This document shows, piece after piece, positions 3 through 25,976 of a stretch of 26,202 nucleotides of DNA. The translations under genes were made by a program, and so were the position numbers. This stretch comes from a virus. The DNA lies in IMG/VR virus record IMGVR_UViG_3300035034_000705, positions 1 to 26,202 of that record. One strand, written 5' to 3'. The first letter of the stretch is position 1. Every line of letters starts with the position of its first letter. The notes below the pieces were generated by a model that saw only the letters and a program-made list of their open reading frames with translations, was not told where the DNA came from and did no database searches.

Positions 3-1643
3 AACCCCGAGCTATTCTGCGCCGTCAACCTTAAGATCATGGCTAAGCTACCTGGAGGGGGAAACCTCAACAGGAGCCTTATACCGTTTAAGTGGAACAG
101 GGCGCAGAAATACGCTCATGCGCGGCTTGAGGAGCAGAAGGCCAAAACGGGCAAAGTCCGGGCGTTAATTTTGAAAGGCCGTCAGCAGGGCATCTCCACA
201 TACGTCTCCGCGCGCTTCTACCACCGCGCCAGCCTGTTTAAGGGCACCTCAGTCTATATCCTGTCCCACGAGCAGAAATCGGGCCTCACGCTATTCAGCA
301 TGGCCTCGACATACCACAAGAAAAACTCACTAGCACCCCACACCTCAGTTGAAAATAAATCGGAGATGGAGTTTGACCGACTTAACAGCAAGTACGCCGT
401 CGGCACCGCTGGGGAGAGTGAAGGCGGTCGTTCGCAAAATGCTACCCATTTTCACGGCAGTGAGGTTGCGTTCTGGCGTAACGCTACAGCCCATTTTGCC
501 TCGTCCGTCCAGACAGTTGCTGACGCCCCTGGTACAGAGATTATCTTGGAGAGTACCGCCAACGGACCCTCTGGTGAGTTCTTTGAGAGATGGGAAAACG
601 CGGTCAGAGGCGACGGCGATTACATCGCGATCTTTATCCCGTGGTTCTGGCAAGACGAGTACGCCCGCGAGGTAGACGAGACCTTTGAGTTGATGGACGA
701 CGGAAGCGACGATTTTCTGTCTGAGAAACAGTATTACGAGATGTTTGAGAGCGACGGCTGTACCCTCGGCCACATGGCCTGGAGGCGTGCTAAGATTAAA
801 GAGCTAGGGTCACACGCAATCTTCGACCAGGAGTACCCTGGTACAGCGCATATGGCCTTTGTGACGACAGCCACCGACAACTTCATTAAGGCTTTACCCG
901 TTCTCCAGGCACGTAAAAGAGAGCGCGAGGGCACAGGGCCTAGGATTATGGGCGTTGACCCCTCAGGGGCCTCAGGAAGCAAGGGAGACAGGTTCGCGGT
1001 CGCTATCCGCGAGGGCCTCAAGGTGACATCGCTGACATGGCGCACGGGCATGTCCACTATGGAGGGCTACAACTACGTCTCAGACCAGATAGAGCAGCAT
1101 CAGCCGGACCGGGTTAACATAGACGCAGGGGGTATCGGCGCGTCGATCGTGTCGCTCCTCAAGGACAATTTGCCGCCTGACCAAGCCCGGCTCATCCATG
1201 CAGTCAACTTCGGCTCTCCGTCTCAGTTTATGAATATCCGCAAGCAGGCGCGCGGCTCTGGAGGCACGCACCATCCGGACCGCAAGCCCGGACCAATAAA
1301 CCGCCGCGCCGAGATGCACATGCGTATGCGAGAGTGGCTCATGCTCCAAGAGGGGGCGGATCTGCCTGATCTGGACGAGCTACAGGGCGATCTTACAGCG
1401 ACCAAACAACGCTATCGTTTAGACAACGATATACAGCTTGAGAGCAAGGAAGAGATGAGGTCACGTGGCGCTAAGTCGCCAGACCTTGCGGATGCTATTG
1501 CTTTGACCTTTGCTACGACAACCCATATACCTATGCGCAATAAAGGCGGTAAAGCCCCCACGTCGGCGCTCATTAACCCAGACACCGCGCGCAATGTCGC
1601 CCGCTCTGGCCAGACCTTCGGCAGCTATGGATGGATGACATGA
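3..1643 (+). CDS. terL: Terminase large subunit (packaging ATPase/nuclease), 5' partial
   Basis: This is the DNA-packaging motor. It hydrolyses ATP to pump DNA through the portal, and its nuclease domain cuts the concatemer. The Walker A segment GRQQGIST lies near residue 48, counting from the ATG at 39. A Walker B-like strand ending in E is at EIILESTANG. The RNase H-like nuclease domain follows, with GVDPSG, then VNIDAGGIG, then SPDLADAIAL, which supply the expected acidic residues. The frame is open from base 3 through the ATG at 39, and the residues before that ATG look like ordinary protein. No Shine-Dalgarno precedes the ATG. The true start is therefore probably upstream of the window and the protein is cut by the edge. 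The 3' end overlaps the portal start in an ATGA arrangement. The family call is firm; the start is not. Confidence 0.93.
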   Translation, partial: NPELFCAVNLKIMAKLPGGGNLNRSLIPFKWNRAQKYAHARLEEQKAKTGKVRALILKGRQQGISTYVSARFYHRASLFKGTSVYILSHEQKSGLTLFSMASTYHKKNSLAPHTSVENKSEMEFDRLNSKYAVGTAGESEGGRSQNATHFHGSEVAFWRNATAHFASSVQTVADAPGTEIILESTANGPSGEFFERWENAVRGDGDYIAIFIPWFWQDEYAREVDETFELMDDGSDDFLSEKQYYEMFESDGCTLGHMAWRRAKIKELGSHAIFDQEYPGTAHMAFVTTATDNFIKALPVLQARKREREGTGPRIMGVDPSGASGSKGDRFAVAIREGLKVTSLTWRTGMSTMEGYNYVSDQIEQHQPDRVNIDAGGIGASIVSLLKDNLPPDQARLIHAVNFGSPSQFMNIRKQARGSGGTHHPDRKPGPINRRAEMHMRMREWLMLQEGADLPDLDELQGDLTATKQRYRLDNDIQLESKEEMRSRGAKSPDLADAIALTFATTTHIPMRNKGGKAPTSALINPDTARNVARSGQTFGSYGWMT

Positions 1644-3772
1644 TCGACGGACCAAAATACGCCAAGACAGTTGTTGACGAGCTACGAGAAAAGAAAAAAG
1701 AACCGCCAGTTCCTGACGGGTTTGAGACGAAAGAAGAGTTCATCAAGTGGGCGATTGACACCTACGGCAAAGACTTGGATTCTGACAGGCTAAACCGCCA
1801 GCAGGCAATCCAGGACATGAAGTTTGTCGCCGGGGACCAGTGGGACGACCGCGTACTACAGCAACGTATAGCCGACCGTAAGCCCACACTAACGATGAAC
1901 CGCCTCCCAGCGTTTGTTGGCCAGCTTATTGGCAACCGCCGCCTTAATGAAACTGAGGTAAAAGTCGTTCCCGACACAGGCGGAACAAAGGACGTTGCCC
2001 GTATTCGCGAAAGCTTAATCCGGTCCATTCAGAAAACATCGAACGCTAACTTTGCGTACAACAAAGCGGCAGAGAATCAGATCATATCGGGCGAAGGCAA
2101 CTGGAAGATCGAAGTAGACTACGCGCACGACGACGTGTTCGAGCAAGACATCAAAATATGCGCAATTCCTAACCCGTTGTCGGTTGTATGGGATCGATCG
2201 GCACATGAGCCTACGGGCGCGGACGCGAAGCACGTCTTTGTGCTAGACGCTATTTCTCACCAAGATTTTAAGAAAGAGTACCCGTGGGCCAAAGGCAGTT
2301 CCACCGGCTCGGACATACGCTCCTACCTGACAGGTCAGGGGATTGAGAACAACTGGTTTGAGCAAGAGACGTACCGCCTGATCGAGTTTTGGAGGGTACT
2401 TTCACGCAAGCGAACGGTTGCCCTTCTAGAGTCCGACGTGGACCCATTTGCCGAGGCGCAGGTGGAGGACGTGACCGACCTGGAGCCAGAAGAGTATATC
2501 GATCGACTGGTCCTGGACAGCAGCGGTGTGCCTATCATGCGGGAAGTTGACCGTAAGTACGCCCAGATGTATCTCATGACCGCTACAGATATCCTCGAAG
2601 GCCCTTACGAGCTGCCCGTGCAGCGCGTGCCCGTAATCCGTTGCTGCGGCTGGGAGGTCAACGTTGGCGATAGTCGTCAGCGCTGGGGCTTAGTCCGCTT
2701 TCTGAAAGACCCGCAGCGCCTACACAACTACTGGCGTTCGACCATTGCCGAGAAGCTTATGATGGCTCCAAAGGGCAACTGGATTGCGGCTGATAAGTCC
2801 GTAGAAGGCCGAGAGAACGAGTGGCGCAACAGCCACATATCTAACGACCCTCTGCTCACGTATAACAGCGAGGAAGGTCCGCCGCCGCAGCGCGTACCTC
2901 CTGTCCCAATGGAGCCAGCTCTCGTCGAACAGGCGGGCATGGCCAGTCAGGATTTACATGATATTTCTAACCTTCATCAAGCAAGTCTTGGTCAGCAGAG
3001 CAATGAGGTTTCTGGCCAGGCGATTATGGCTCGTCAGAGAGTTGGAGAGACGGGTACTGCAATTTACGAGACGAACCTACAGCTTTCTATCGAAGAGACT
3101 GGCAAAGTGCTTAACCAGCTTATTCCCCTCGTTTATGACACGCCTAGAACGATTAAAATCATGGGTCCAGAGGCTGAGAAAGTCTCCACCGCCCTGATTA
3201 ACGACACGACCAACTCAGAGAGCGTTGACATCACCCTTGGGCGCTACAGCATCACGTCCTCCACTGGACCCAGCTATGTCACCAAACGCGTTGAGGCCGG
3301 GGCGTCTATGCTCAACATGGTTAATGCAGCGCCTCAGGCTATGCAGGTTGCTCTGGACAAAATCGTTGAGGCACAGGATTGGCCCGGCGCGGACGCTATT
3401 GCTGCGCGTCTGCGTACACAGCTTCCCCCAGGCGTTGTCCAGGCCAACGAGATGACCGACGAGGAGAAGCAGGCCCAAGTTGCTGCTCAAGAGGCTCAGC
3501 AGGCTCAGCAGGCCCGCGATGACGCTATGCTAGGCGCTCAGGTCAACGAGAAGAACGCACGTGCAGAGCAGGCTTTGGCCCTCGCGCAGCAAGCAATCGC
3601 CAACTCGGCCAAGATGATGTCCGAAGTTGGAGTGAAAGCGGCAGACGTTGCCGCAAGTGTAGAAGACGCCGAGACCAAACGGTTCTACGAGGCCGTTGGC
3701 ATCTACCAGGACTTCCTAGCCACACAAAAGCAAAGTGACCAAAATGACAGACCAGACCAAGCAGACGCCTAG
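1631..3772 (+). CDS. Portal protein, P22-like
   Basis: This forms the ring at the packaging vertex through which DNA enters and leaves the head and to which the neck proteins attach. The N-terminal segment matches the P22-type portal style: a GDQWDDRVLQQR stretch followed by RKPTLTMNRLPAFVGQL and GNRRLNE around residues 70-105. The core contains LHNYWRSTIAEKL and a QASLGQQSNEVSGQAI segment near residues 440-470, also typical of this family. The last ~120 residues are Ala/Gln-rich and predicted helical, compatible with the C-terminal barrel of P22-like portals. The length (713 aa) fits. Two in-frame ATGs (1631 and 1640) are possible. The one at 1640 overlaps the terminase stop as ATGA, which favours translational coupling. 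The scaffold gene begins inside its 3' end. Confidence 0.9.
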   Translation: MDDMIDGPKYAKTVVDELREKKKEPPVPDGFETKEEFIKWAIDTYGKDLDSDRLNRQQAIQDMKFVAGDQWDDRVLQQRIADRKPTLTMNRLPAFVGQLIGNRRLNETEVKVVPDTGGTKDVARIRESLIRSIQKTSNANFAYNKAAENQIISGEGNWKIEVDYAHDDVFEQDIKICAIPNPLSVVWDRSAHEPTGADAKHVFVLDAISHQDFKKEYPWAKGSSTGSDIRSYLTGQGIENNWFEQETYRLIEFWRVLSRKRTVALLESDVDPFAEAQVEDVTDLEPEEYIDRLVLDSSGVPIMREVDRKYAQMYLMTATDILEGPYELPVQRVPVIRCCGWEVNVGDSRQRWGLVRFLKDPQRLHNYWRSTIAEKLMMAPKGNWIAADKSVEGRENEWRNSHISNDPLLTYNSEEGPPPQRVPPVPMEPALVEQAGMASQDLHDISNLHQASLGQQSNEVSGQAIMARQRVGETGTAIYETNLQLSIEETGKVLNQLIPLVYDTPRTIKIMGPEAEKVSTALINDTTNSESVDITLGRYSITSSTGPSYVTKRVEAGASMLNMVNAAPQAMQVALDKIVEAQDWPGADAIAARLRTQLPPGVVQANEMTDEEKQAQVAAQEAQQAQQARDDAMLGAQVNEKNARAEQALALAQQAIANSAKMMSEVGVKAADVAASVEDAETKRFYEAVGIYQDFLATQKQSDQNDRPDQADA

Positions 3773-4895
3773 CAGCAACCCTCTCGAAGCAGAGGCAGAC
3801 CACACTAAGTTTAAAGTCGTAGAGCAGTCCGATGAGGCACAGCGGAATGCCCGATCGAGAGATGCGGACAATAGCGATAAAGCAGCCGACGACACCGCGT
3901 CAGATGAAAGCATTATTGCTGATCTGGTGGACAGTGACGACACGATCGACGACTTGGACGATATCCTCCATGACGACCTAGAGGACGGCGATCTAAAAGA
4001 TGATGATGACGACCTAGAGGACAATGATGACGACCTAGAGGACGGCGACCTAAAAGATGATGACGAGCCAGACGAGGACGGTAAAAGCCGCAAAAAGAAA
4101 GGCTCCACTCAGCAGAGGATGAACCAACTTCTCCGCGAACGCAGAGAAGCCAAGCAGGAAGCTAAGCTTGAGCGAGAGGCCCGTACAGCCCTCGAAGCAC
4201 GCCTTGCAGCGCTTGAGGAAAAGTTGACACAGCCGGAAGCCGCTGATACGTCTAAGGACGACGCCAAGGAACTTGTCGAGCCTAATCCCGACGATTTTCA
4301 ATATGGCGAACTTGATACGGAGTACACAAAAGCACTCCGCGCCTATGACCGAGACTTAGTACGGCAGGAGCTTCTAGGCCGTCTTGACAAAGACAAAGCT
4401 ACGGAAGACGAAGCCCGGCAGCAAAAAGCCGCTGAGCAAAAAGCTCAGGAAATTGCTACGCAGTATTCTACCACGCTAGATAGAGGCACCGCAAATTACG
4501 ACGACTTCCAAGAAGTTGTTGTCGATGCTGCAGACAAAGGAAAATATGCTTTGTCTGAAACCGTAGCGATGGCGGCACTGCGGTCAGAAGTAGGAGATCG
4601 TGTACTTTACACGTTAGCCAAGAACCCAAAGATGGCACAAAGCATAGCTTCAATGGTTACGCAGGACGCCGACGGGAACAAAGTTGACGACGTAAAACGC
4701 CAAACTGAGGCCTTCGCCAGACTTGAGCGCCGATTTTCGAAAGAATCCTCTAAAGGAAGCAGAAGGGCGAGTAAGGCTCCTCAGCCGCCGCGACGGAAGT
4801 CTCGTGGCACAAGTGGCAAAAATAGGGCCGACCCCGCTAATGCGAATGACTTCCTTGCACTAGAAAAAGCCTATAACTCAGGCGAACTAAATTAG
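3744..4895 (+). CDS. Head scaffolding protein
   Basis: This is inferred to guide coat assembly and then leave the procapsid. Position between portal and coat is the classic scaffold position. The first ~60 residues are polar. Next comes a run of Asp/Glu with tandem repeats (about residues 65-110), then a basic coiled coil (around residues 120-160, with MNQLLRERREAKQEAKLE). A segment of the form PNPDDFQYGELDTEYTKAL follows, and then a helical domain with ALRSEVGDRVLYTLAKNP. That late motif is common in phage scaffolds of this group. The C terminus is very basic (KGSRRASKAPQPPRRKSRG), which fits coat binding by charge. The start is the ATG at 3744; an in-frame GTG at 3735 would add three residues. 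Neither has a clear ribosome site, and both lie within the portal gene, so coupling is likely. Confidence 0.82.
   Translation: MTDQTKQTPSSNPLEAEADHTKFKVVEQSDEAQRNARSRDADNSDKAADDTASDESIIADLVDSDDTIDDLDDILHDDLEDGDLKDDDDDLEDNDDDLEDGDLKDDDEPDEDGKSRKKKGSTQQRMNQLLRERREAKQEAKLEREARTALEARLAALEEKLTQPEAADTSKDDAKELVEPNPDDFQYGELDTEYTKALRAYDRDLVRQELLGRLDKDKATEDEARQQKAAEQKAQEIATQYSTTLDRGTANYDDFQEVVVDAADKGKYALSETVAMAALRSEVGDRVLYTLAKNPKMAQSIASMVTQDADGNKVDDVKRQTEAFARLERRFSKESSKGSRRASKAPQPPRRKSRGTSGKNRADPANANDFLALEKAYNSGELN
3972..4063 (+). repeat. Tandem acidic repeat inside the scaffold gene
   Basis: A 35-bp unit at 3972-4006 recurs at 4029-4063 with a single T/C difference. Its first 14 bases (GACGACCTAGAGGA) occur a third time at 4008-4021. 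The unit encodes DDLEDGDLKDD, so the repeats lengthen an Asp-rich acidic arm in phase with the reading frame. The near identity suggests recent slippage or duplication. Confidence 0.9.
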
Positions 4896-4907
4896 AGGAT
4901 TACCCAA

Positions 4908-6167
4908 ATGGCTAACCAGTTTCTCAATGCAACCGAGTACGCGAACGCGTTCCTCGTCTTGCTGAAAAACCAACTGGTCGCGGCAAAGCTCGTGACTGGT
5001 GAATTTCGTGATGAAGTGACTGACGAAAATGGTCTCTCCGTCAACATTAAACGTCCACCCCGCTTTATTGCTAACGACGGCGCAGCTCTCGCAGCTCAAG
5101 ACATCGTAACTGGCTCTACCAACGTCCGCGTTGACCAGTACAAGAACGTCCACGTTTCCGTTGGCGATCTTGAGTACGTCCAGTCTTTCAACGAGCTGAT
5201 CAAGAACGAAACCTTGAAGTCTGCCGCGTCCGAATTGGCGCATACGATCGACGGCGCTATCCTGAACGAGATGAAGTTCTTTCACTCTTCGGTCGGTACT
5301 CCGGGCAATGTGATCGGAACACCGCAGCAGTTCAACGCCGCGCATACGCGTTTGATGAACCAAGCGGTCCCTAACGAGAGCATCAACGCTATTGTGTCCT
5401 TCGATGACGGCGCAGCAATTCGCGGCTCCCTAATCGGCGGGGATATCCCGGGCATCAACCGGACCGCACTTGAGCGCGTCCGCATCCCTCTCATCTCCGA
5501 GATTGACTTGTACGCATCCAACAACCTTCGTTCGGTTGTCTCTGGTACGCGGACAGGGGGCACAGGCCCAGCGGTCAATGGCGCAAGTCAGAACGTCAAC
5601 TATCGCGCCGTGAAAGACACAAACGTTCAGACACTGAATGTGGACGGCCTAGGTGCGAACGCGACTGTTGCGCAAGGTGACATCTTCACCATTGCTGGCG
5701 TCTTTGCGATTAACCCGCGCAGCCGCGAAGTTCTGCCTTACCTACAGCAGTTTGTTGTCATGGCAGACGCTACGGCATCGGGTGCAGGCGCAGCAGCCCT
5801 CACAGTGTCTATGCCTATCATCGTACCTGGCACCAATGACGGCACGAGTACAGTTGCCAATACGGCCTTTGCGACGGTCTCCGCCGCCCCTGCCGACAAC
5901 GCAGCTATCCAGTTCTACGCCGGAGCAAACGCAAGAGTTCCCGTCCGCGCAGCCTTCCATCGCCGGGCAATCTCTCTCGTATCTGCAAGACTGGCAATGC
6001 CATTTACAGGCGAGGCGTCCTTTGTGACCGACCCTGATACTGGCGTGTCTGTTCGCTACTGGCGCGGCTCTGATATCCAGACAGGTGCCCACATCCACCG
6101 CTTCGATACGATCTACGGCGTAGATAATATCCAGCCAATGCTAGGCGTCCGTGTAAACGGCTCCTAA
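4908..6167 (+). CDS. Major capsid protein, P22 gene 5-like coat
   Basis: This is the shell-forming coat protein with the HK97 fold as found in P22. The N terminus (MANQFLNATEYANAFLVLL, then LSVNIKRPPRF near residue 43 and VSVGDLEYVQSFNEL near 83) matches the P22 coat family pattern, as do ASELAHTIDGAIL and the length of 419 aa. A Gly/Ala/Thr-rich stretch, including GDIFTIAGVFAINPRSREVL around residues 255-280, corresponds to the part of P22-like coats that carries the conserved INP turn. A good ribosome site (GAGGA at 4895-4899, 8 bases before the ATG) overlaps the scaffold stop codon, fitting the high expression needed. A strong hairpin follows the stop. Family assignment is confident; the exact extent of any telokin-like insertion domain cannot be judged by eye. 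Confidence 0.93.
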   Translation: MANQFLNATEYANAFLVLLKNQLVAAKLVTGEFRDEVTDENGLSVNIKRPPRFIANDGAALAAQDIVTGSTNVRVDQYKNVHVSVGDLEYVQSFNELIKNETLKSAASELAHTIDGAILNEMKFFHSSVGTPGNVIGTPQQFNAAHTRLMNQAVPNESINAIVSFDDGAAIRGSLIGGDIPGINRTALERVRIPLISEIDLYASNNLRSVVSGTRTGGTGPAVNGASQNVNYRAVKDTNVQTLNVDGLGANATVAQGDIFTIAGVFAINPRSREVLPYLQQFVVMADATASGAGAAALTVSMPIIVPGTNDGTSTVANTAFATVSAAPADNAAIQFYAGANARVPVRAAFHRRAISLVSARLAMPFTGEASFVTDPDTGVSVRYWRGSDIQTGAHIHRFDTIYGVDNIQPMLGVRVNGS

Positions 6168-18769: not shown

Positions 18770-20821
18770 TTATTTACTCATGATACCATAAGCTTGAGCC
18801 AGAGCAAGAACGTCTTGCGGGGTTAGCTTCGTGTCGGTCATGCGGGCTTTGATAAGAGCTGCAACGTCAACGGGGTCACTAGATGACGCTGGCGCAGTCT
18901 TCGCAGGTGCGCGCTTACGAGGGGCAGCCTTCTTAGGAGCTGGCTCTTCGTCCTCCTCATCTTCGTCCTCATCTTCGTCCTCACCCTCACCCTCACCAAG
19001 AGCCTCTTGTACGGCCTTAGAGAACTGACGCTTGGCCCGGCGAGTGACGGGTTCCTCATCTTCCTCATCTTCGTCCTCATCTTCGTCCTCAGGCTCTTCC
19101 TGCTTTAGCTTAGCCTTCGTCGCTGAGCGGCTGGAGCGGCGGCGAGGAGCTGGCTCTTCGTCCTCATCTTCGTCCTCATCTTCCTCGACAGGAGCAGCAG
19201 CACGGGTACGTGTGCGGCTTTTACGGCGAGGGGCCGGAGCTTCATCTTCGTCCTCTTCTTCGATTTCGTCGATGTAGTCCTCGACCGAGGATTCTTGTAC
19301 TTTTGACTTCGTTGATAAACGTCTACGTGCCATGATGTTTTCCTTAGTATCATGTCCATCTATCGGAGATGGGGCCGTTTTACCGTCGCGGTAAATCTCT
19401 GCGTTCAAGGCGAGGAGAAGTGCGTTCTGCGTCCCGCCTTTCGCGTAAACTGAATCCTCTAAAACGCGCTCATCGATAGTGTTCTCCACAACGAAAATGT
19501 GGTTGAACACACGGGCCTGGGTGTTGCCCTGGCGAAATATGCGTTTTATAAACTGGTCGTAGTTCTCATAGTCCCAGGTCATGGAGAACTGCGCTATGTG
19601 GCAGGCCTGGCCCTTCTGTAAGTTCAGTCCGTGAGCGACCGATGCAGGGTGTGCAAACAGGATTGGGTATTTGTTGGCGTTCCAGTCCGCCTCAATCTGC
19701 ATGGACTGCTTCTCACCAACGCCCTTCCCGATATGGGGTGTGCTCTCACCGAACGCCGCCTTGAGCCTGTCCAGATCATGGTTAAACTCGTAGGCCACCA
19801 GCAGAGGCGTTCCCTGCAGCTCCTCCACCAGCTCCTTAAGCGCATCGATCTTAGCGTCATGCAGGTGTTGGACAGTCCGCTCCTCTAGCACACCGTCTCC
19901 GGCGTAGACAGCGCCATTGGCCATCTGCTTGAGCTTGGAGTACACCCCAGCGGCATTGGCTGCTTCGACGACCCCACCAGGCAGGTCCGCGACCATATCC
20001 TTCTTCATCTTCATATAGACCTTACGGGCCTTAGGGGGCATGGTGATGACACGTATGTCCTCCACCAGCTCAGGCAGGTCCAGGTAGTCTTTTGCGCTCA
20101 TCCGGAGAACATAGGGCTTGATCCGTTCCTCAATCTGCTTTCCCGCGCCGCGCCGGAGGGTGTAGTCGAATCCATTGTAGTCACTTTCGAAATATTTGGA
20201 GCGGTAGTGCGTGATGTATCTGCCGAGGGACGCGCCCTGGTCCATGATCAGCATCTGCCCAAACAGGTCCAGATAGCCATTAGGGATGGGTGTACCCGTC
20301 AGGCCCCATCGATACTTGACCTTGGCCATTTTGGGCAGCAACTGCTTGTGCCGCACCGACGACGCATTCTTGAATCGTGTCAGCTCATCGATACACACGA
20401 TGTCGTAGGGGAGCTGGTGGCCCCAATACTTGTGCATGAGCCAGGGTATGCCCTCTGGATTGATCAGGTGGATGTCTGTGTCCTCGTCTAGCAGAGCGTC
20501 CTTCTTAGAGCCGTGGAGGAGGGTGAAGGTTAAATCCTTGAACTGTGTCCAGCGCGCGCCCTCTTGCCTCCACACGAGCTGGCAGACGCGTAGGGGGGCT
20601 ATGATCAGCATCTGCTTGACCTGGCCCTGCCGTTTGAGCTGTTGGAAGGCGTCAAGGGTTATAGACGTCTTCCCAAGTCCTGGGTCTAAAAGTAGGATTC
20701 CTACCCTTCTGTCTTCCTCTTGCATGAACATGGACGCCCGCTCCTGATAGCTGTGCGCGTTCCAAGGCTCGTGAGATAGCGCTCTTTGCACTCTCGTCGT
20801 TGTCGCAGATGCAAACATCAT
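18770..20821 (-). CDS. SNF2-like DNA helicase with long acidic/basic C-terminal tail
   Basis: This is an ATP-dependent superfamily 2 motor, probably for replication or recombination. A Q-motif-like NAHSYQERASMF is near residue 21. Walker A DPGLGKT is at 46-52, DELT (Walker B-like) at 145-148, LTGTP at 174-178. The second domain has HGLNLQ (397-402) and QFIKRIFRQGN (423-433), the SNF2-like motifs V and VI. The recognisable motor ends near residue 490. The last ~187 residues are not motor. They are alternating Asp/Glu-rich runs and Arg/Lys/Pro/Ser-rich runs, repeated four times, then a helical end (DPVDVAALIKARM, LTPQDVLALAQAYGIMSK). An in-frame ATG with a strong ribosome site begins exactly at this boundary. 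The N-terminal start overlaps the upstream nuclease gene by 170 bases. Confidence 0.85.
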   Translation of the reverse strand: MMFASATTTRVQRALSHEPWNAHSYQERASMFMQEEDRRVGILLLDPGLGKTSITLDAFQQLKRQGQVKQMLIIAPLRVCQLVWRQEGARWTQFKDLTFTLLHGSKKDALLDEDTDIHLINPEGIPWLMHKYWGHQLPYDIVCIDELTRFKNASSVRHKQLLPKMAKVKYRWGLTGTPIPNGYLDLFGQMLIMDQGASLGRYITHYRSKYFESDYNGFDYTLRRGAGKQIEERIKPYVLRMSAKDYLDLPELVEDIRVITMPPKARKVYMKMKKDMVADLPGGVVEAANAAGVYSKLKQMANGAVYAGDGVLEERTVQHLHDAKIDALKELVEELQGTPLLVAYEFNHDLDRLKAAFGESTPHIGKGVGEKQSMQIEADWNANKYPILFAHPASVAHGLNLQKGQACHIAQFSMTWDYENYDQFIKRIFRQGNTQARVFNHIFVVENTIDERVLEDSVYAKGGTQNALLLALNAEIYRDGKTAPSPIDGHDTKENIMARRRLSTKSKVQESSVEDYIDEIEEEDEDEAPAPRRKSRTRTRAAAPVEEDEDEDEDEEPAPRRRSSRSATKAKLKQEEPEDEDEDEDEEDEEPVTRRAKRQFSKAVQEALGEGEGEDEDEDEDEEDEEPAPKKAAPRKRAPAKTAPASSSDPVDVAALIKARMTDTKLTPQDVLALAQAYGIMSK
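18935..19270 (-). repeat. Repeated acidic/basic coding blocks in helicase tail
   Basis: Four GAA/GAT/GAC/GAG-rich blocks (about 18944-18996, 19052-19100, 19153-19187 and 19240-19270) encode Glu/Asp runs separated by Arg/Lys/Pro/Ser stretches. An exact 21-bp match occurs at 18935-18955 and 19145-19165. Spurious poly-Ser frames appear on the opposite strand as a by-product. Confidence 0.8.
19331..19345 (-). promoter_or_regulatory. Internal ribosome site and in-frame ATG in the helicase gene
   Basis: On the minus strand AAGGA (complement of 19341-19345) lies 7 bases before an ATG (complement of 19331-19333). The ATG is in frame with the helicase and would make a separate 187-residue acidic/basic protein (MARRRLSTKS...). 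It falls exactly where the helicase motor ends. Confidence 0.55.
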
Positions 20822-21062
20822 AATCCAATTTCAGTAGTAGGTTAATCTTACGTTCTTGCTTGGCGTTGGGAGGCTCACCATCCCACTTGAACTCTATGTA
20901 GAGGGGCCTGCCTCCTGGGATAAGGAAGAGCACGTCTGGCCACCCAGTCTCTGCCCCAGGCCCAAAGTAAAACCGGACACTGTAAACACCTATGGGCTTA
21001 GCCCATTTGATGATGCGGGCCTGCAGCTTAAGCTCTTCCTTCGCCTGGGTGGGCTTAACCAT
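20652..21062 (-). CDS. VRR-NUC domain nuclease
   Basis: Numbered from the ATG at 21062 (136 aa), the PD-(D/E)XK-type VRR-NUC pattern is visible. GW-P42-D43 lies in the GAETGWPDVLFLI strand, E57-x-K59 in PLYIEFKWDGE, and a Q69 helix follows (AKQERKINLLLKL). A final strand/helix (YDVCICDNDESAKSAISRAL) follows the family plan. Such nucleases act as Holliday-junction or flap/structure-specific enzymes, or as small stand-alone phage nucleases. An upstream in-frame start would add 35 unlike residues. The ATG chosen overlaps the preceding gene's stop by 8 bases (ATGGTTAA), which suits coupling. The C-terminal ~55 residues (KGRNPTFRPRTWEDVYNP end) overlap the helicase start for 170 bases in another frame. 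Confidence 0.82.
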   Translation of the reverse strand: MVKPTQAKEELKLQARIIKWAKPIGVYSVRFYFGPGAETGWPDVLFLIPGGRPLYIEFKWDGEPPNAKQERKINLLLKLDYDVCICDNDESAKSAISRALERAQLSGAGVHVHARGRQKGRNPTFRPRTWEDVYNP

Positions 21063-21741
21063 AGGAGCAAGGCCCACCGTTCGATCGGCGGAAGTGGCAC
21101 CAGCCGCACAGCGCATTTGGGTTGGCGGGGAAGCGGTCGGCGGCGAGCATGGCCTCTGCGCGCGCAACGATGTCGTCGAAGTAGTCGAGAGCTTCCTGCT
21201 TGGTGTACTCTTCGACCACCTCGTCGCCCGTGTCTAGAAACCATAGGCGGGTACTGATTGTCTCCAGCTTCCCCCCCGTTCGGAGAACAGATACCCCGGC
21301 GTACAGTCTGAGCTGATCAGTATATTTGTCCATGCTCTGAGGCCGGAACTTGCCAGTTTTAAAATCTATAATGTCCGCGTGACTGTCGCCATAGTCGAGG
21401 AACGCGTCAAGGGACAGGCGCAGCCATGCGTCCGGCGCGAACTTGCCTGTCATCTTCATCTTCTGGGTGAATGTCCAATCCTCCTCCACGATAGGGTGCA
21501 TCTCTTTCAGCTCCTCCAGTTGGGAGGTGAAGGCCGCGCCGGAGGCTGGGACCATCTTAACCTTACCGTCCAGGTAGTCCGCGACCTCTTTGTGTACCTT
21601 AATCCCACGCCACATGGCGTCGCCCTTAGGCTCCTCCAGCTTGTCGATGTTGCGGTATTTGAACAGGGCCGGGCACTGCTCATAGCAGGTCAGACGGGAG
21701 TAGGACCAGAAGGTGTTCCAGGGTCTAGCTTTTGGCATCAT
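21055..21741 (-). CDS. Cas4/RecB-like PD-(D/E)XK exonuclease
   Basis: This is a 228-residue PD-(D/E)XK nuclease of the Cas4/RecB type. H50 lies in a GIKVHKEVADYL helix, D112 in LSLDAFLD, D126-x-K128 in IIDFKTGK, and Q143...Y147 in YTDQLRLYA. Together these are the RecB-family nuclease motifs. Cysteines C19/C23 near the N terminus (SRLTCYEQCP) and C212, C215 and C225 near the C terminus (CGWCHFRRSNGGPC) are placed as in iron-sulfur Cas4-like enzymes. It could act as an end-processing exonuclease in replication or recombination. No CRISPR genes or arrays are near, so an adaptation role is unlikely. It overlaps the genes on either side by 8-17 bases. Confidence 0.85.
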   Translation of the reverse strand: MMPKARPWNTFWSYSRLTCYEQCPALFKYRNIDKLEEPKGDAMWRGIKVHKEVADYLDGKVKMVPASGAAFTSQLEELKEMHPIVEEDWTFTQKMKMTGKFAPDAWLRLSLDAFLDYGDSHADIIDFKTGKFRPQSMDKYTDQLRLYAGVSVLRTGGKLETISTRLWFLDTGDEVVEEYTKQEALDYFDDIVARAEAMLAADRFPANPNALCGWCHFRRSNGGPCSYG

Positions 21742-21976
21742 CTTTCCCGTCTATAAAGAACTTCGTGACCTCTGCCGGGTCCATCTTGAACAGCTCGGCA
21801 AAAACAATGCCCGCCATCTTCTCATACCCGTCGCGAATGTCTGGGTCGAGCTGGCTGTACAAGGGGCTGGTTAACGTGCTCACGCTCTTGTATATCGCAA
21901 GACCGCAGTGCCTCCGCATACGGATGAGCTGGGCGAGATCATCCCGCTCATGTAGGTTGGTTCCGTTCTTCGTCAT
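21725..21976 (-). CDS. Small unknown protein in replication operon
   Basis: This is an 83-residue protein, mostly helical, without recognisable motifs: MTKNGTNLHERDDLAQLIRM, then LAIYKSVSTLTSPLYSQL, then IVFAELFKMDPAEVTKFFID. It overlaps the polymerase stop by ATGA and overlaps the Cas4-like start by 17 bases, so it is co-translated with both. A role as a replication or nuclease accessory is possible from context only. Confidence 0.72.
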   Translation of the reverse strand: MTKNGTNLHERDDLAQLIRMRRHCGLAIYKSVSTLTSPLYSQLDPDIRDGYEKMAGIVFAELFKMDPAEVTKFFIDGKDDAKS

Positions 21977-23919
21977 GCTGCTTCCCTCTTGTCGTCGTAG
22001 CTCTCTAAGTTACCCCAACGGTCCCCGACCTTGCCGGACGAACGCATAAGAAGATCCAGGACAACGCCTTCCATCGCTTCTAACAGGTAGAGCATCTCCT
22101 GCTCTACAAGGTCTTCGTGGCAGCTTATGTTTATCTCATCATAGACCGTGACCAGAAACCGCGTCGTCGCGTGCCTACGTGGGTCTTCGTACCAACGGAT
22201 TAAAGCTTCGTATGTGATGTCCGCTGCAGAGCCTTGACAGTAGTAGTTGATCAGCTTGTAGAGGTAGTGCCTGATACGCCCATCAACCAGTCGCGGCTCC
22301 TCGCAGAAATAGCAGCGCCCGCCCCAGGTCCGGATTGGGTCGCCTTCATCGATAATCTCTTTGATCACATCGTTGACATGAATACGGCCTGGAAGGGCTG
22401 TGTCGTGGAACTTCTTAAACCTCTTGGCGTCGGCCATAGTACAGCCCTCATCCAGGGCCGCGTTGAGCGCCTTCTGAGCCGCAGGGACGCCGCCGCCGTA
22501 CAGGCCTTGGAAGTTCAAAATCTTAACAGGCGTCCGGTCCAGTGCAACACCGACCAGCTTCTCCACCTCATCCCGAACCCAGCCGTGGGGGTCGAGGTCT
22601 GGGTCTGCCTGGTACGCCTCTAGGAGTGGCCCCTGCTCCACATGAGCGAAGGCACGCATCTCCTGCCCGTCGAAGTCGCGGTGACAGAACACATGGCCGG
22701 GGTCGGGCAGGACGTATGCGCGCACATTGGGAAGGGGTGGCAGGCCCCACTCGTTGCCATCCTCAAAGTCGAACTTCTCCCGATCGGACGCTTTGAAGTC
22801 TTTAGGTATGTTCAAAAAGTTTGGGTTAGAGGTGGACGGCCTGCCTGTCCGAGCGCCGCCGTCTGGGCTGCGGACCTGGTTCCAGACCGTGGATATGATC
22901 CCGCCGCGCTGCTTGGCCTGGGCCTCCCACGGGCGGAGGAATGTGGACAAGGTTGTCTGCACCTTGTTGCGGTAGAAGAATAGGCGGGCGACGTGCCTGT
23001 CCTTGAACATCTCAAACTTAAGATTGTCCTTGGAAACACTCCGTAACCCTGTCTTGGTTAGGGTCCAGTCGTCGTCGTCGATGCAACCGCTATCACTAAG
23101 AGCATCAGCAAGTTGAGCGTCAGAAGCAATGTTAAGATCAGGGGCATCCAGAGCGCTTCTGAGGAGGTCATCGGCCTGTTCAAGAGCCGCCTCGTATCGC
23201 GGTACATCGCGCTCCAGCGCTTCGATATCCACATGTATGCCATCCCGTTCGTTCTCCATAAATATAGGCATGACGCGCCGCGTCCGGTCATAGGAAGGTA
23301 CCATACGGTACTCATCCACTACGGGCAGCATCGTCTGAAACAGCCCCCAGGTTCGCCCCACATCGCCAATAGCGTACTTTCCGACCAGACCTGCTGGGCA
23401 CTTCGATATCCACGCCCCAGCGCTGTTAGGGCCAGACTTAGCCTTAGTTATGTTGCCCCCATGCTTGGCGACCAGCCGCTTGCGGTGCTTCCAAACATAG
23501 TCGGCTATCACGTCGCGCTCTTCTGGTGGCCAGTCCAGCCACTCCTCCGCAAGCTCCTTAAGCGCCAGGGACTTGCTGTGCGGCTCCAGGAGAAACGCCA
23601 GGAACATCGTGTCGTGTACGCGGTCCCACGGCAGAGGGTCTAGCCCCATGCGCTCATAGGCGACGTGTAGGTCGAACTTGGCGTTGTGGAACAGGACAGG
23701 GGCGTTGCTGCTCCAGATACTCTCCAGCACGCGCTTGGCCTCGCGCTTGGTGCAGTTGTTGCCTTTGGGGTGGCCCCACGCCAGATAGTCCTCGTCACCG
23801 TTCACCCAGCGGATAGCGACGCCGACTGGTTCAGGCGGGAACTCCGGCCAGTATTGCGCAATCGCCTCTGTCTCGAAATCGACTGTAACGGCGCTGTCTA
23901 TGAGCGTATCAATGGACAC
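21973..23919 (-). CDS. DNA polymerase I-like (family A) with proofreading exonuclease
   Basis: This is the phage replicative polymerase. Exonuclease motifs: D14-x-E16 (VTVDFETEA), N79...F82-D83 (LFHNAKFD), and Y182...D186 (YAIGD). Polymerase motifs: TGRPSTSNPNFLNIP at about 358-372; motif A D415-F-D-G-Q-E420-M-R422 (DFDGQEMR); motif B R462...K466...F470...YG475 (KILNFQGLYGG); motif C VYDE at 592-595. The catalytic Asp residues D415 and D594 are present. Motif C carries Tyr593 where most Pol I members have His. Phe at the E. coli Pol I F762 equivalent (F470) is of the kind reported to correlate with virulent phages. There is no 5'-3' exonuclease domain. The start is GTG 23919, with AGAGGA just upstream. 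Confidence 0.93.
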   Translation of the reverse strand: MSIDTLIDSAVTVDFETEAIAQYWPEFPPEPVGVAIRWVNGDEDYLAWGHPKGNNCTKREAKRVLESIWSSNAPVLFHNAKFDLHVAYERMGLDPLPWDRVHDTMFLAFLLEPHSKSLALKELAEEWLDWPPEERDVIADYVWKHRKRLVAKHGGNITKAKSGPNSAGAWISKCPAGLVGKYAIGDVGRTWGLFQTMLPVVDEYRMVPSYDRTRRVMPIFMENERDGIHVDIEALERDVPRYEAALEQADDLLRSALDAPDLNIASDAQLADALSDSGCIDDDDWTLTKTGLRSVSKDNLKFEMFKDRHVARLFFYRNKVQTTLSTFLRPWEAQAKQRGGIISTVWNQVRSPDGGARTGRPSTSNPNFLNIPKDFKASDREKFDFEDGNEWGLPPLPNVRAYVLPDPGHVFCHRDFDGQEMRAFAHVEQGPLLEAYQADPDLDPHGWVRDEVEKLVGVALDRTPVKILNFQGLYGGGVPAAQKALNAALDEGCTMADAKRFKKFHDTALPGRIHVNDVIKEIIDEGDPIRTWGGRCYFCEEPRLVDGRIRHYLYKLINYYCQGSAADITYEALIRWYEDPRRHATTRFLVTVYDEINISCHEDLVEQEMLYLLEAMEGVVLDLLMRSSGKVGDRWGNLESYDDKREAA

Positions 23920-24232
23920 TGTTGGTCCTCTGAATGTCTACGACCTGCACCCAATCTACTGCCAGTATGTCGTCCTGCGCCATAGGGTATGGGACGATCA
24001 CTAAGCCTCCTTGGGTCTGCCCGCAAAGGTGTATGGTAGGGGGGATAGTGGCGGTCCGCTCTACGTCACCTACTAACACTATAGCACCGTCAGTGTGAGC
24101 CTCCTCCAGGAACACGAACAAAGATGTGGGAGGCCAGGAGGTGCGGCGGAACAGTAGCCCCTCCTTAAGGCCGTGGACGACCGTTGCCGTATCTACCAGC
24201 ATATCTTTGCTGGGGGCGGTGTACTGTGTCAC
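23909..24232 (-). CDS. DUF2829 / Tad2-like protein, candidate anti-Thoeris factor
   Basis: This 107-residue protein shows the DUF2829 plan: an N-terminal VVHGLKEGLLFRRTSW (18-33), i.e. a KEG...R..W signature, beta strands in the middle (FVFLEEAH, IPPTIHLCG, GLVIVPYPM), and a closing DDILAVDWVQV (87-97), i.e. D-LA-DW. DUF2829 proteins are known as the Tad2 family, which can sequester cyclic ADP-ribose signal molecules and so block Thoeris defence; not all members have been tested. The start is GTG 24232, near GAGG. It overlaps the polymerase start by 11 bases and follows the Cys-motif protein gene by 4 bases, so it is expressed with replication genes. Family by pattern is good; activity is inference. 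Confidence 0.7.
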   Translation of the reverse strand: MTQYTAPSKDMLVDTATVVHGLKEGLLFRRTSWPPTSLFVFLEEAHTDGAIVLVGDVERTATIPPTIHLCGQTQGGLVIVPYPMAQDDILAVDWVQVVDIQRTNSVH

Positions 24233-24236
24233 GGCT

Positions 24237-25088
24237 TCACCGCCTCGCTTTTTTACGGGCCGCGATACTGTTCTTGCCCTTCACCTTAGGTGCAGCCAGC
24301 TCGTCCTCAGAGGGAGCCTCATAGCCTTTGAGCAGCATCTCGCGTGCCTCATCTACACGGCTAAGGATAACGCCTAGGCACTCGTCTGAGAGGTCGCCCT
24401 CGCCGATCTTCTCTACCAGCTCAAAGTCGATAGTGAACTGGTTCTCCGCGTCTGGCTCAACAATGATGTTGGACACGACGGCGAAGGGCGGGAGCTGGTC
24501 CTGCTTGGTCAGAGAGGAGGCGTATTTACTGAACGCCTTCATGTTGGTTGGGGAGAGACTGAGCTGGAAAATGGGGGCGTCGCGGTAGTGGTCAGCGTCC
24601 ACATACAGCTCTTCAGAGTAGTCTCGCTTACCCTGCTTAATAAACTCGCCGGCAAACATCACAGCTAGGCGTCGGCGGTTGCCGCATTTCTTCCCGCGGC
24701 CCTTGTCTGCGGACCCCCACTTCGAAAACTCACACTTAGAGCACTCGGCATCGTCGCCGTCGGACTGAGCGATGAAGTAGTCTCCGTCGTCTGCCTCCTC
24801 AGGGAACTTACAGGCTTCGTCGGCTGCCAGGTCTTTCTCGGAGAACGCCAGGGCGAAGCACTTAGGAGGGAGCTGCACGTCTGGGTCATACGCGTGGTCG
24901 TAGTAGGCGTTTTCGTACACGTAATCTACGATGATAGCGAGCATCTGGTTGCCCGGCAGTTCGTCCTCACCGATCTTCATTATGCCACCACGGACAGACA
25001 CGCGTTGAGAGGTGATCTTCTCCTCTGCGGCGTACTCTTTCGCTTTGACGGCCAGTTGCTTTTTATACTTCTCAATTGCGGTGCCCAT
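24237..25088 (-). CDS. Cys-motif replication-operon protein, possible ssDNA-binding/accessory
   Basis: This 283-residue protein has SVRGGIMKIGEDELPGNQML near residues 31-50, which leads into a strand AIIVDYVYENAYYDHAYDPD. A C-x2-C at 116-119 with C135 (CSKCEFSKWGSADKGRGKKC) suggests a metal- or nucleic-acid-binding knuckle. Other Cys lie at 77 and 93, and the C terminus is Lys/Arg-rich (KGKNSIAARKKARR). Similar proteins are found beside phage DNA polymerases, often annotated hypothetical. ssDNA binding is a reasonable guess by context and basic tail, but not shown. AGGAG lies 8 bases before the ATG. The next gene starts 4 bases after its stop. Confidence 0.7.
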   Translation of the reverse strand: MGTAIEKYKKQLAVKAKEYAAEEKITSQRVSVRGGIMKIGEDELPGNQMLAIIVDYVYENAYYDHAYDPDVQLPPKCFALAFSEKDLAADEACKFPEEADDGDYFIAQSDGDDAECSKCEFSKWGSADKGRGKKCGNRRRLAVMFAGEFIKQGKRDYSEELYVDADHYRDAPIFQLSLSPTNMKAFSKYASSLTKQDQLPPFAVVSNIIVEPDAENQFTIDFELVEKIGEGDLSDECLGVILSRVDEAREMLLKGYEAPSEDELAAPKVKGKNSIAARKKARR

Positions 25089-25098
25089 GTTGGGTCTC

Positions 25099-25500
25099 CT
25101 ATAGCTTGGTTAGGCTGATTGATTTCAGCAAGATTGTGTTGATACCTGGAATGCTGCCGTCCACGAGAGTGTCCATGATAGCCTTGTCTGACAGGCGCTT
25201 CTGCAGCAAGTCAAAGCGGTCCTCATCCACAACATAGTCGTAGAACTGCTCCCAATCCTCAACGATAGGTTTCTCGTTGATCTTAAGCTGCGCCCGATAG
25301 GTCTTGCCCGCCGCGCCAGTGTCGTACTCCTCAGAGCCTAGGCTGGATATGAGATGCTCTTGCAGCTCCGACGCGCGCTTACGCACAACGTCAACCTCCT
25401 TCTGCATAGCGGTGGCAAGGTCTTTGACCTTTTTCAGCTCGTCGGCGCAGCGACCTAGGCTGGAGGGGATAGGGTCTCCCGCAACATAGCTAATCTTCAT
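25099..25500 (-). CDS. Conserved-looking phage protein with coiled coil, unknown
   Basis: This is 133 residues long. A coiled-coil segment spans about residues 14-55 (RCADELKKVKDLATAMQKEV, then RKRASELQEHLI). It is followed by a compact half with KPIVEDWEQFYDYVVDEDRF and DLLQKRLSDKAI, and an end GSIPGINTILLKSISLTKL. The WEQFYDYV...DLLQKR...PG.....LS.TK pattern recurs in phage hypothetical proteins near replication genes. The start overlaps the end of the upstream gene by 11 bases and has GGAG about 8 bases upstream, within a repeated junction element. Function unknown. Confidence 0.72.
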   Translation of the reverse strand: MKISYVAGDPIPSSLGRCADELKKVKDLATAMQKEVDVVRKRASELQEHLISSLGSEEYDTGAAGKTYRAQLKINEKPIVEDWEQFYDYVVDEDRFDLLQKRLSDKAIMDTLVDGSIPGINTILLKSISLTKL

Positions 25501-25750
25501 CGTTCAGGCTCCAGTGGACTTTCAAGGTGTACAGATCCAGAAGACTTTCAAGGTTTTCTTGACAATCCGTGAGGTTGTCCAAGACGGAGGATAGGCGGTC
25601 ACATGCTTCATCTAGTGCGAGGGCTGGTCTGCCTTCGGGAACGTTGTCCGTCTCGTCTGATACGTCGTCTCTGTACTCCTCCAGTGAGCTACACAGTTTC
25701 TCAACTTGAGAGATGTACTTTTTAATCTGGGGAATGCGTCTCTTATTCAT
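25490..25750 (-). CDS. Small acidic coiled-coil protein, unknown
   Basis: This 86-residue protein is predicted helical: IPQIKKYISQVEKLCSSLEE, then LALDEACDRLSSVLDNLTDC and QENLESLLDLY. It ends in SLNDED, the same C-terminal signature as the upstream J-domain protein (SLNDE), because both stop/start junctions carry the same 17-bp repeat. AAGGAG lies 8 bases before its ATG. Likely a structural or adaptor helix pair; no family was recognised. Confidence 0.68.
   Translation of the reverse strand: MNKRRIPQIKKYISQVEKLCSSLEEYRDDVSDETDNVPEGRPALALDEACDRLSSVLDNLTDCQENLESLLDLYTLKVHWSLNDED
25496..25512 (-). repeat. 17-bp junction repeat, copy 1
   Basis: TTCATCGTTCAGGCTCC (plus strand) is identical to 25746-25762. 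On the minus strand it holds the GGAG ribosome site, the spacer and the ATG of the 133-residue gene, and codes SLNDE at the end of the upstream gene. Confidence 0.85.
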
Positions 25751-25976
25751 CGTTCAGGCTCCTTATAAGTGTCTCTTTTGCAGCAGTCAAAACGGCCATG
25801 TCTGGCACGTCATCACTTGTGGAGGTGTCGGGGTGGCAGGCACGGGCCTTCGCTTTGAATGCAGCAGCAATCTCTACGGCCCCCGGGAATGCAGTCTCAG
25901 CAAAGCCCAAAGATTTAAGCGCCCTAGCGCGATTCCTCTTCTTCGCTAGCTGCCCGTCCGGTCTACGCAATACCAC
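25743..25976 (-). CDS. Mini J-domain (DnaJ-like) protein
   Basis: This is a 77-residue protein. A helix I-like ALKSLGFAE stretch is followed by helix II (VEIAAAFKAKARA, 34-46), then the His-Pro-Asp motif at 48-50 (CHPDTS). Helix III (PDMAVLTAAKETLIR, 58-72) follows. This is the J-domain order with HPD, the motif that stimulates Hsp70 (DnaK) ATPase; glycine/zinc modules of full DnaJ are absent. A basic N terminus (KKRNRAR) precedes it. The start is GTG 25976 with AGGAG 7 bases upstream. It may recruit host DnaK to phage replication or assembly, which is inference. It overlaps the next gene by 8 bases. Confidence 0.75.
   Translation of the reverse strand: MVLRRPDGQLAKKRNRARALKSLGFAETAFPGAVEIAAAFKAKARACHPDTSTSDDVPDMAVLTAAKETLIRSLNDE
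25746..25762 (-). repeat. 17-bp junction repeat, copy 2
   Basis: This is identical to 25496-25512. On the minus strand it includes the SD and ATG of the 86-residue gene and codes SLNDE, the end of the J-domain protein. Confidence 0.85.

Follow-up and report, generated by a model that had tools for sequence, protein, structure and literature searches.

The stretch of DNA analysed here (the window) was the record of an uncultivated virus in IMG/VR, with a length of 26,202 bases. A Tad2-like (PF11195) gene was located on the minus strand at 23909-24232. It encoded a protein of 107 aa, with a GTG start and a TGA stop. The gene was placed between that of a 283-aa Cys-motif protein (24237-25088, minus strand; PHROG_27714), a conserved protein that accompanies polA on its upstream side in this group of phages, and that of a 648-aa DNA polymerase A with a 3'-5' exonuclease domain (polA; 21973-23919, minus strand; PF00476, E 2e-30; PF01612, E 2.6e-7). 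The gap between the stop of the Cys-motif gene and the start of the Tad2-like gene was 4 nt. The polA start was located 11 nt inside the 3' end of the Tad2-like gene, which gave an overlap at 23909-23919 on the minus strand, and the SD-like AGAGGA of polA was within the Tad2-like gene. The start codon of polA was also GTG. This gene order was the same as that reported in the preliminary description of the window. The GC content at the three codon positions of the Tad2-like gene was 0.64/0.41/0.65, similar to that of the neighbour genes. When the codon usage of the neighbours was applied, its frame gave the highest score of all six (0.09 per codon), with −0.10 for the runner-up. The Tad2-like gene is coding. 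A promoter-like site was sought in the region of the gene and none was found. The overlap with polA suggested that the gene may be co-expressed early, at the level of the replication proteins.

The minus strand at 18770-25088 carried a replication operon related to those of Xanthomonadaceae phages, and the plus strand at 1631-6167 carried P22-like portal and coat genes (PF16510, PF11651), which indicated a mosaic genome. The window PolA was about 40% identical to the polymerases of Pseudoxanthomonas phage PW916 and Stenotrophomonas phage AXL_3. In addition to polA, the operon encoded a PD-(D/E)XK (Cas4/RecB-like) nuclease (21055-21741, minus strand; PF12705, E 2.3e-19), a VRR-NUC-like nuclease (20652-21116, minus strand; PF08774, 20.1 bits, below the cut-off of 23.8) and an SNF2-type helicase (18770-20821, minus strand; PF00176, E 1.7e-23; PHROG_62, E 1.3e-135). 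The helicase had a long low-complexity C-terminal tail at 18770-19300 (minus strand), in which acidic (EDEDEDE) and basic stretches alternated. A protein encoded at 25099-25500 (minus strand) matched PHROG_13900, which is labelled 'minor head protein'; this label looked doubtful because replication genes adjoin. A 77-aa DnaJ-like protein was encoded at 25743-25976 (minus strand; PF00226, 17.1 bits, below the cut-off), and in PW916 and AXL_3 a protein with a DnaJ domain is annotated on the same strand, upstream of polA.

Profile searches were performed to assign the 107-aa protein to a family. PF11195 (Tad2-like, formerly DUF2829) gave 33.5 bits (E 6e-8) against a curated gathering cut-off of 25 bits, and the match covered protein residues 17-95 and profile positions 5-71 of 73. 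PHROG_1048 was also matched (E 8.5e-7). No match was obtained with the NCBIfam and PADLOC profiles, and a tie to replication factors was given by no Pfam or PHROG profile. The 52 relatives, with the window protein left out, were used to build a profile that still recognised the protein at E 2.7e-6; among 2000 shuffled versions, the best one reached only E 0.49 with the same profile. This meant that the family match was neither due to chance nor supported by the protein itself. The family call made earlier from the letters was thus confirmed: the 107-aa protein belongs to the Tad2-like domain family. An AlphaFold2 model of the monomer, calculated with the 53-row alignment, showed a pLDDT of 76, and its Foldseek ranks 1-24 in the PDB were all Tad2 chains (SPO1, ModTad2, HgmTad2/AcrIIA7 and SptTad2; prob 1.00), a fold match that was not independent of the sequence match, since the input alignment was made of Tad2 relatives. 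The next match, a neck protein of phage 812 (E 0.21), was below significance and was rejected. The model calculated from the single sequence was uninformative (pLDDT 41). These results suggested that the protein probably adopts the Tad2 fold, as predicted by the alignment-based model.

We compared the protein with its relatives to determine how far it had diverged. The alignment consisted of 53 rows, the 52 relatives and the window protein. Identity to the relatives was 16-32% across the whole alignment, and the maximum found anywhere was about 33%. A peptide-pattern search of IMG/VR gave no close homologues. Among GenBank phages, only one weak match was obtained (31.6%, E 0.06), to the canonical Tad2 of Klebsiella phage VLCpiS11a, and no phage DNA nearly identical to the window was found. 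By sequence comparison, the 107-aa protein is the most diverged Tad2-like member among those sampled. Twenty-nine columns were conserved at ≥80% in the 52 relatives, and the window protein kept 15 of them. The kept residues that were invariant in all relatives were G25, R30, W33, Q86, D88, D93 and W94. The motifs cited in the preliminary description, K23-E24-G25, R30, W33 and D88-I-L-A-V-D93-W94, were all present. A protein tree of 92 columns was calculated, in which the terminal branch of the window protein was saturated (10 changes per column, unreliable), and the tree was not used. Within this known counter-defence family, the 107-aa protein represents a genuine, diverged variant.

Changes were examined in two segments that are reported to line the gcADPR pocket of Tad2. 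The β1-β2 loop region corresponded to residues 31-40, T-S-W-P-P-T-S-L-F-V (24113-24142, minus strand; placed by the alignment and the model strands), where the relatives had x-G-W-N-G-K-G-M-F. The G-W-N-G-K-G loop was thus replaced by S-W-P-P-T-S without a change in length. In the 52 relatives, which came from searches where the loop partly served as the pattern, G32 and G35 were found in 52/52, N34 in 51/52 and K36 in 49/52. The search patterns of a second survey did not include the loop. It covered 80 loci, with identities as low as about 31%. A GWNG-type loop was found in about nine in ten of them and a Pro-Pro loop in none. The loops of other types included GWAGAG, GWDGKS, GWNSKD, GWNDKG, GWNAGG, SWNGKG, IWGGYW and KWGDKA. 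All solved Tad2 sequences that were aligned had GWNGK plus G or N, irrespective of the ligand. Taking GWNG[K/N] as the pocket loop of Tad2 sponges, the window protein had SWPPTS at this position. The β4-α3 segment corresponded to residues 81-95, P-Y-P-M-A-Q-D-D-I-L-A-V-D-W-V (23948-23992, minus strand; placed by the alignment). Q86, D88, L90, A91, D93 and W94 of the motif W-x-x-S-Q-x-D-x-L-A-x-D-W were kept here. W82, which precedes helix 3 and was found in 52/52 relatives, was changed to Y, and S85 was changed to A. The gcADPR pocket is formed by loop β1-β2, loop β3-β4 and strand β4 of one protomer and by loop β1-β2, loop β4-α3 and helix α3 of the other (review, PMC12043709). By this description, the window protein would have kept most of one wall and rebuilt the other. 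The ligand of the window protein is likely to be shifted or lost.

The changes were then compared with Tad2 proteins of known ligand. SPO1 Tad2 binds gcADPR and HgmTad2 binds cyclic dinucleotides (PDB titles; PMC12043709), and the ligand of ModTad2 is His-ADPR (PDB title; PMC13299392). SPO1 Tad2 (gp34.65; PDB 8sme, 8smf, 8smg) shared the Pfam family and the predicted fold with the window protein (Foldseek prob 1.00, TM-score normalised to target 0.7-0.8, 19-24% identity), as well as the R, the W and Q-x-D-x-LA-x-DW. However, it had GWNGKN where the window protein had SWPPTS, and AWVPSQ where the window protein had PYPMAQ. HgmTad2/AcrIIA7 (PDB 8kbi-8kbm, 9kzr) was the top sequence match in the PDB (8kbi, E 0.0014) and also contained Q-x-D-x-LA-x-DW. 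It differed by its GWNGKG loop and by a longer insertion after β2, which is tied to cyclic dinucleotide binding (PMC12043709). ModTad2, from a Myroides odoratus prophage (PDB 8v3e, 9eib), belongs to the same family and has a demonstrated ligand shift to His-ADPR (PMC13299392). In contrast to the window protein, it retained the GWNGKG loop, which meant that its ligand shift needed no new loop.

The position of the gene in the operon was compared among 50 related loci, drawn from both IMG/VR and GenBank, in which the Cys-motif protein was ahead of polA. The distance from the Cys-motif stop to the start of the polymerase match ranged from 3 to about 1500 nt, so that the slot was regarded as a variable cargo site. 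A Tad2-like gene was found in the slot of 1/50 operons (L011, IMGVR_UViG_3300033146_000195), whose polymerase was of the same clade as that of the window. As in the window, the L011 gene was located between those of the Cys-motif protein and of DNA polymerase A, and its product was 29% identical to the window protein. However, an additional gene (145 aa) was placed ahead of polA, and the loop was also unusual, the GWAGAG recorded in the second survey (L203, on the same contig), which is still Gly-rich. Another of the 50 loci (L039) had a canonical Tad2-like gene downstream of a nuclease gene, and a locus found via its Tad2-like gene (L098) had a polymerase of the window's clade upstream. A conserved operon position was rejected on the basis of the single occurrence among the 50. 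The opposite idea, that a Tad2 gene close to replication genes has no precedent, was also rejected: terminase and head genes were among the neighbours of other Tad2-like genes, and so were those of ribonucleotide reductase, primase and DNA polymerase. In Delftia phage RG-2014, DUF2829 and PolA are in one genome and are non-adjacent by gene number (PMC5735904). The replication-operon setting is uncommon, not unprecedented. Among the Pseudomonadota genomes drawn, a Tad2-like match was found in 4/399, including the centre genome that was chosen for having one.

The best explanation, in which we have about an even degree of confidence, was that the protein acts as a counter-defence signal sponge with altered or non-canonical specificity. 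The small Tad2-fold protein would be co-produced with the phage DNA polymerase, and its oligomers would bind and hold a nucleotide-derived immune signal of the bacterium. Tad2 signal sponges are homotetramers that have two pockets between protomers, and they act against Thoeris or CBASS. The defence effector would then stay off during phage replication. This explanation was based on the family precedent, since SPO1 Tad2, ModTad2 and HgmTad2 each hold a different signal. The PF11195 score, the profile without the window, the fold, the kept invariant residues, the intact frame and the slot shared with L011 were counted in its favour. The ligand is probably bound in a non-canonical way, because the loop was rewritten (NGK to PPT, with the flanking Gly to Ser) and the α3 side was kept, and a different ADP-ribose or cyclic-nucleotide signal may now be recognised. 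However, Tad2-like domains are also carried by multi-domain proteins encoded on chromosomes, where no counter-defence link was apparent. In addition, ligand binding may be lost because the loop and W82 were changed and only 15/29 conserved columns were kept. The oligomer, the binding of a ligand, the counter-defence role and the early co-expression of the protein are what we infer from these comparisons.

The preliminary description had named the product a Tad2-like candidate anti-Thoeris protein. The family and the operon placement were upheld, but the anti-Thoeris part was not established; it was weakened by the loop replacement, and Trp82 was also changed to Tyr. Since the characterised Tad2 proteins differ in ligand, Thoeris could not be named as the target from the sequence, and it is one option among several and an improbable one. 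An ordinary Tad2 anti-Thoeris sponge would sequester gcADPR or His-ADPR like SPO1 Tad2 or ModTad2, with the loop changes as tolerated drift. The family and fold match and the retained W33 and α3 motif agreed with this, but the GWNGK loop in every solved Tad2 aligned, whatever the ligand, and the second survey, with its predominance of GWNG-type loops and no PP loop, made it unlikely. It is similarly doubtful that the protein has lost the binding of immune signals and has become an accessory of replication or nucleotide metabolism, such as a nucleotide-sensing or structural partner of the polymerase or the Cys-motif protein. The polA overlap, the 4-nt gap, the same slot in L011 and the replaced pocket loop would fit such a partner. 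However, a slot filled in just one of the 50 related operons indicated that the gene was dispensable for replication in this group, and no profile connected the protein to replication factors.

An inhibitor of type II CRISPR-Cas would be consistent with AcrIIA7 (HgmTad2) having the Tad2 fold and being the best PDB sequence match. However, AcrIIA7 also binds cADPR and cGG (PDB titles), so that its Acr activity may be secondary, and nothing in the locus pointed to CRISPR; an anti-CRISPR role was considered very improbable. A former Tad2 gene that is functionless and heading for loss could account for the lost loop residues and the long, unreliable terminal branch. Against such decay, the frame was open, the codon usage was neighbour-like, the operon packing was tight and the core fold residues were retained, and we regarded it as highly unlikely. 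The window protein might also found a Tad2 sub-lineage of replication operons, in which the near-universal GWNGK pocket loop was exchanged for a new one and which binds a ligand beyond the known Tad2 ones, possibly an undescribed nucleotide signal. This is a speculative and rather improbable proposal.

Tad2 proteins represent a single small fold that has been retuned to different immune signals. The window protein probably kept the fold and lost the loop common to the structurally characterised members, and it thus offers a natural test of which parts of the pocket are necessary. It also tests whether the family reaches past gcADPR, His-ADPR and cyclic dinucleotides. In addition, it calls for caution, because a PF11195 match alone does not justify the name 'anti-Thoeris'.

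Several other Tad2-like variants were observed during the surveys. Chromosomal proteins, mostly of about 200-300 aa, had an N-terminal Tad2-like domain in a Xenorhabdus genome (G050; L198-L202) and in a second genome (G348; L192, L194-L197), with up to eight copies per genome. Their loops were of the type GWNAPxEH or DWDVPDEY, and their C-terminal region contained 'SFDLxxG...FHLxW'; the setting was not obviously one of counter-defence. A related phage encoded, within its replication region, a short zinc-ribbon-like protein (L041:187-459) that had the Tad2 C-terminal motif NDLLATDWEVVE as its end and gave 21.5 bits with PF11195, below the cut-off. Tandem Tad2-like genes were found at L256:2443-2963, and likewise in L257 and L258, where the one with a deviant IWGGYWFL loop was directly before the second match. 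In L259:4818-5282, a single open frame encoded a degenerate Tad2-like stretch (MNFEQAVQEMIDGKRVRLSDW...NDWEIA) followed by a canonical Tad2 domain.
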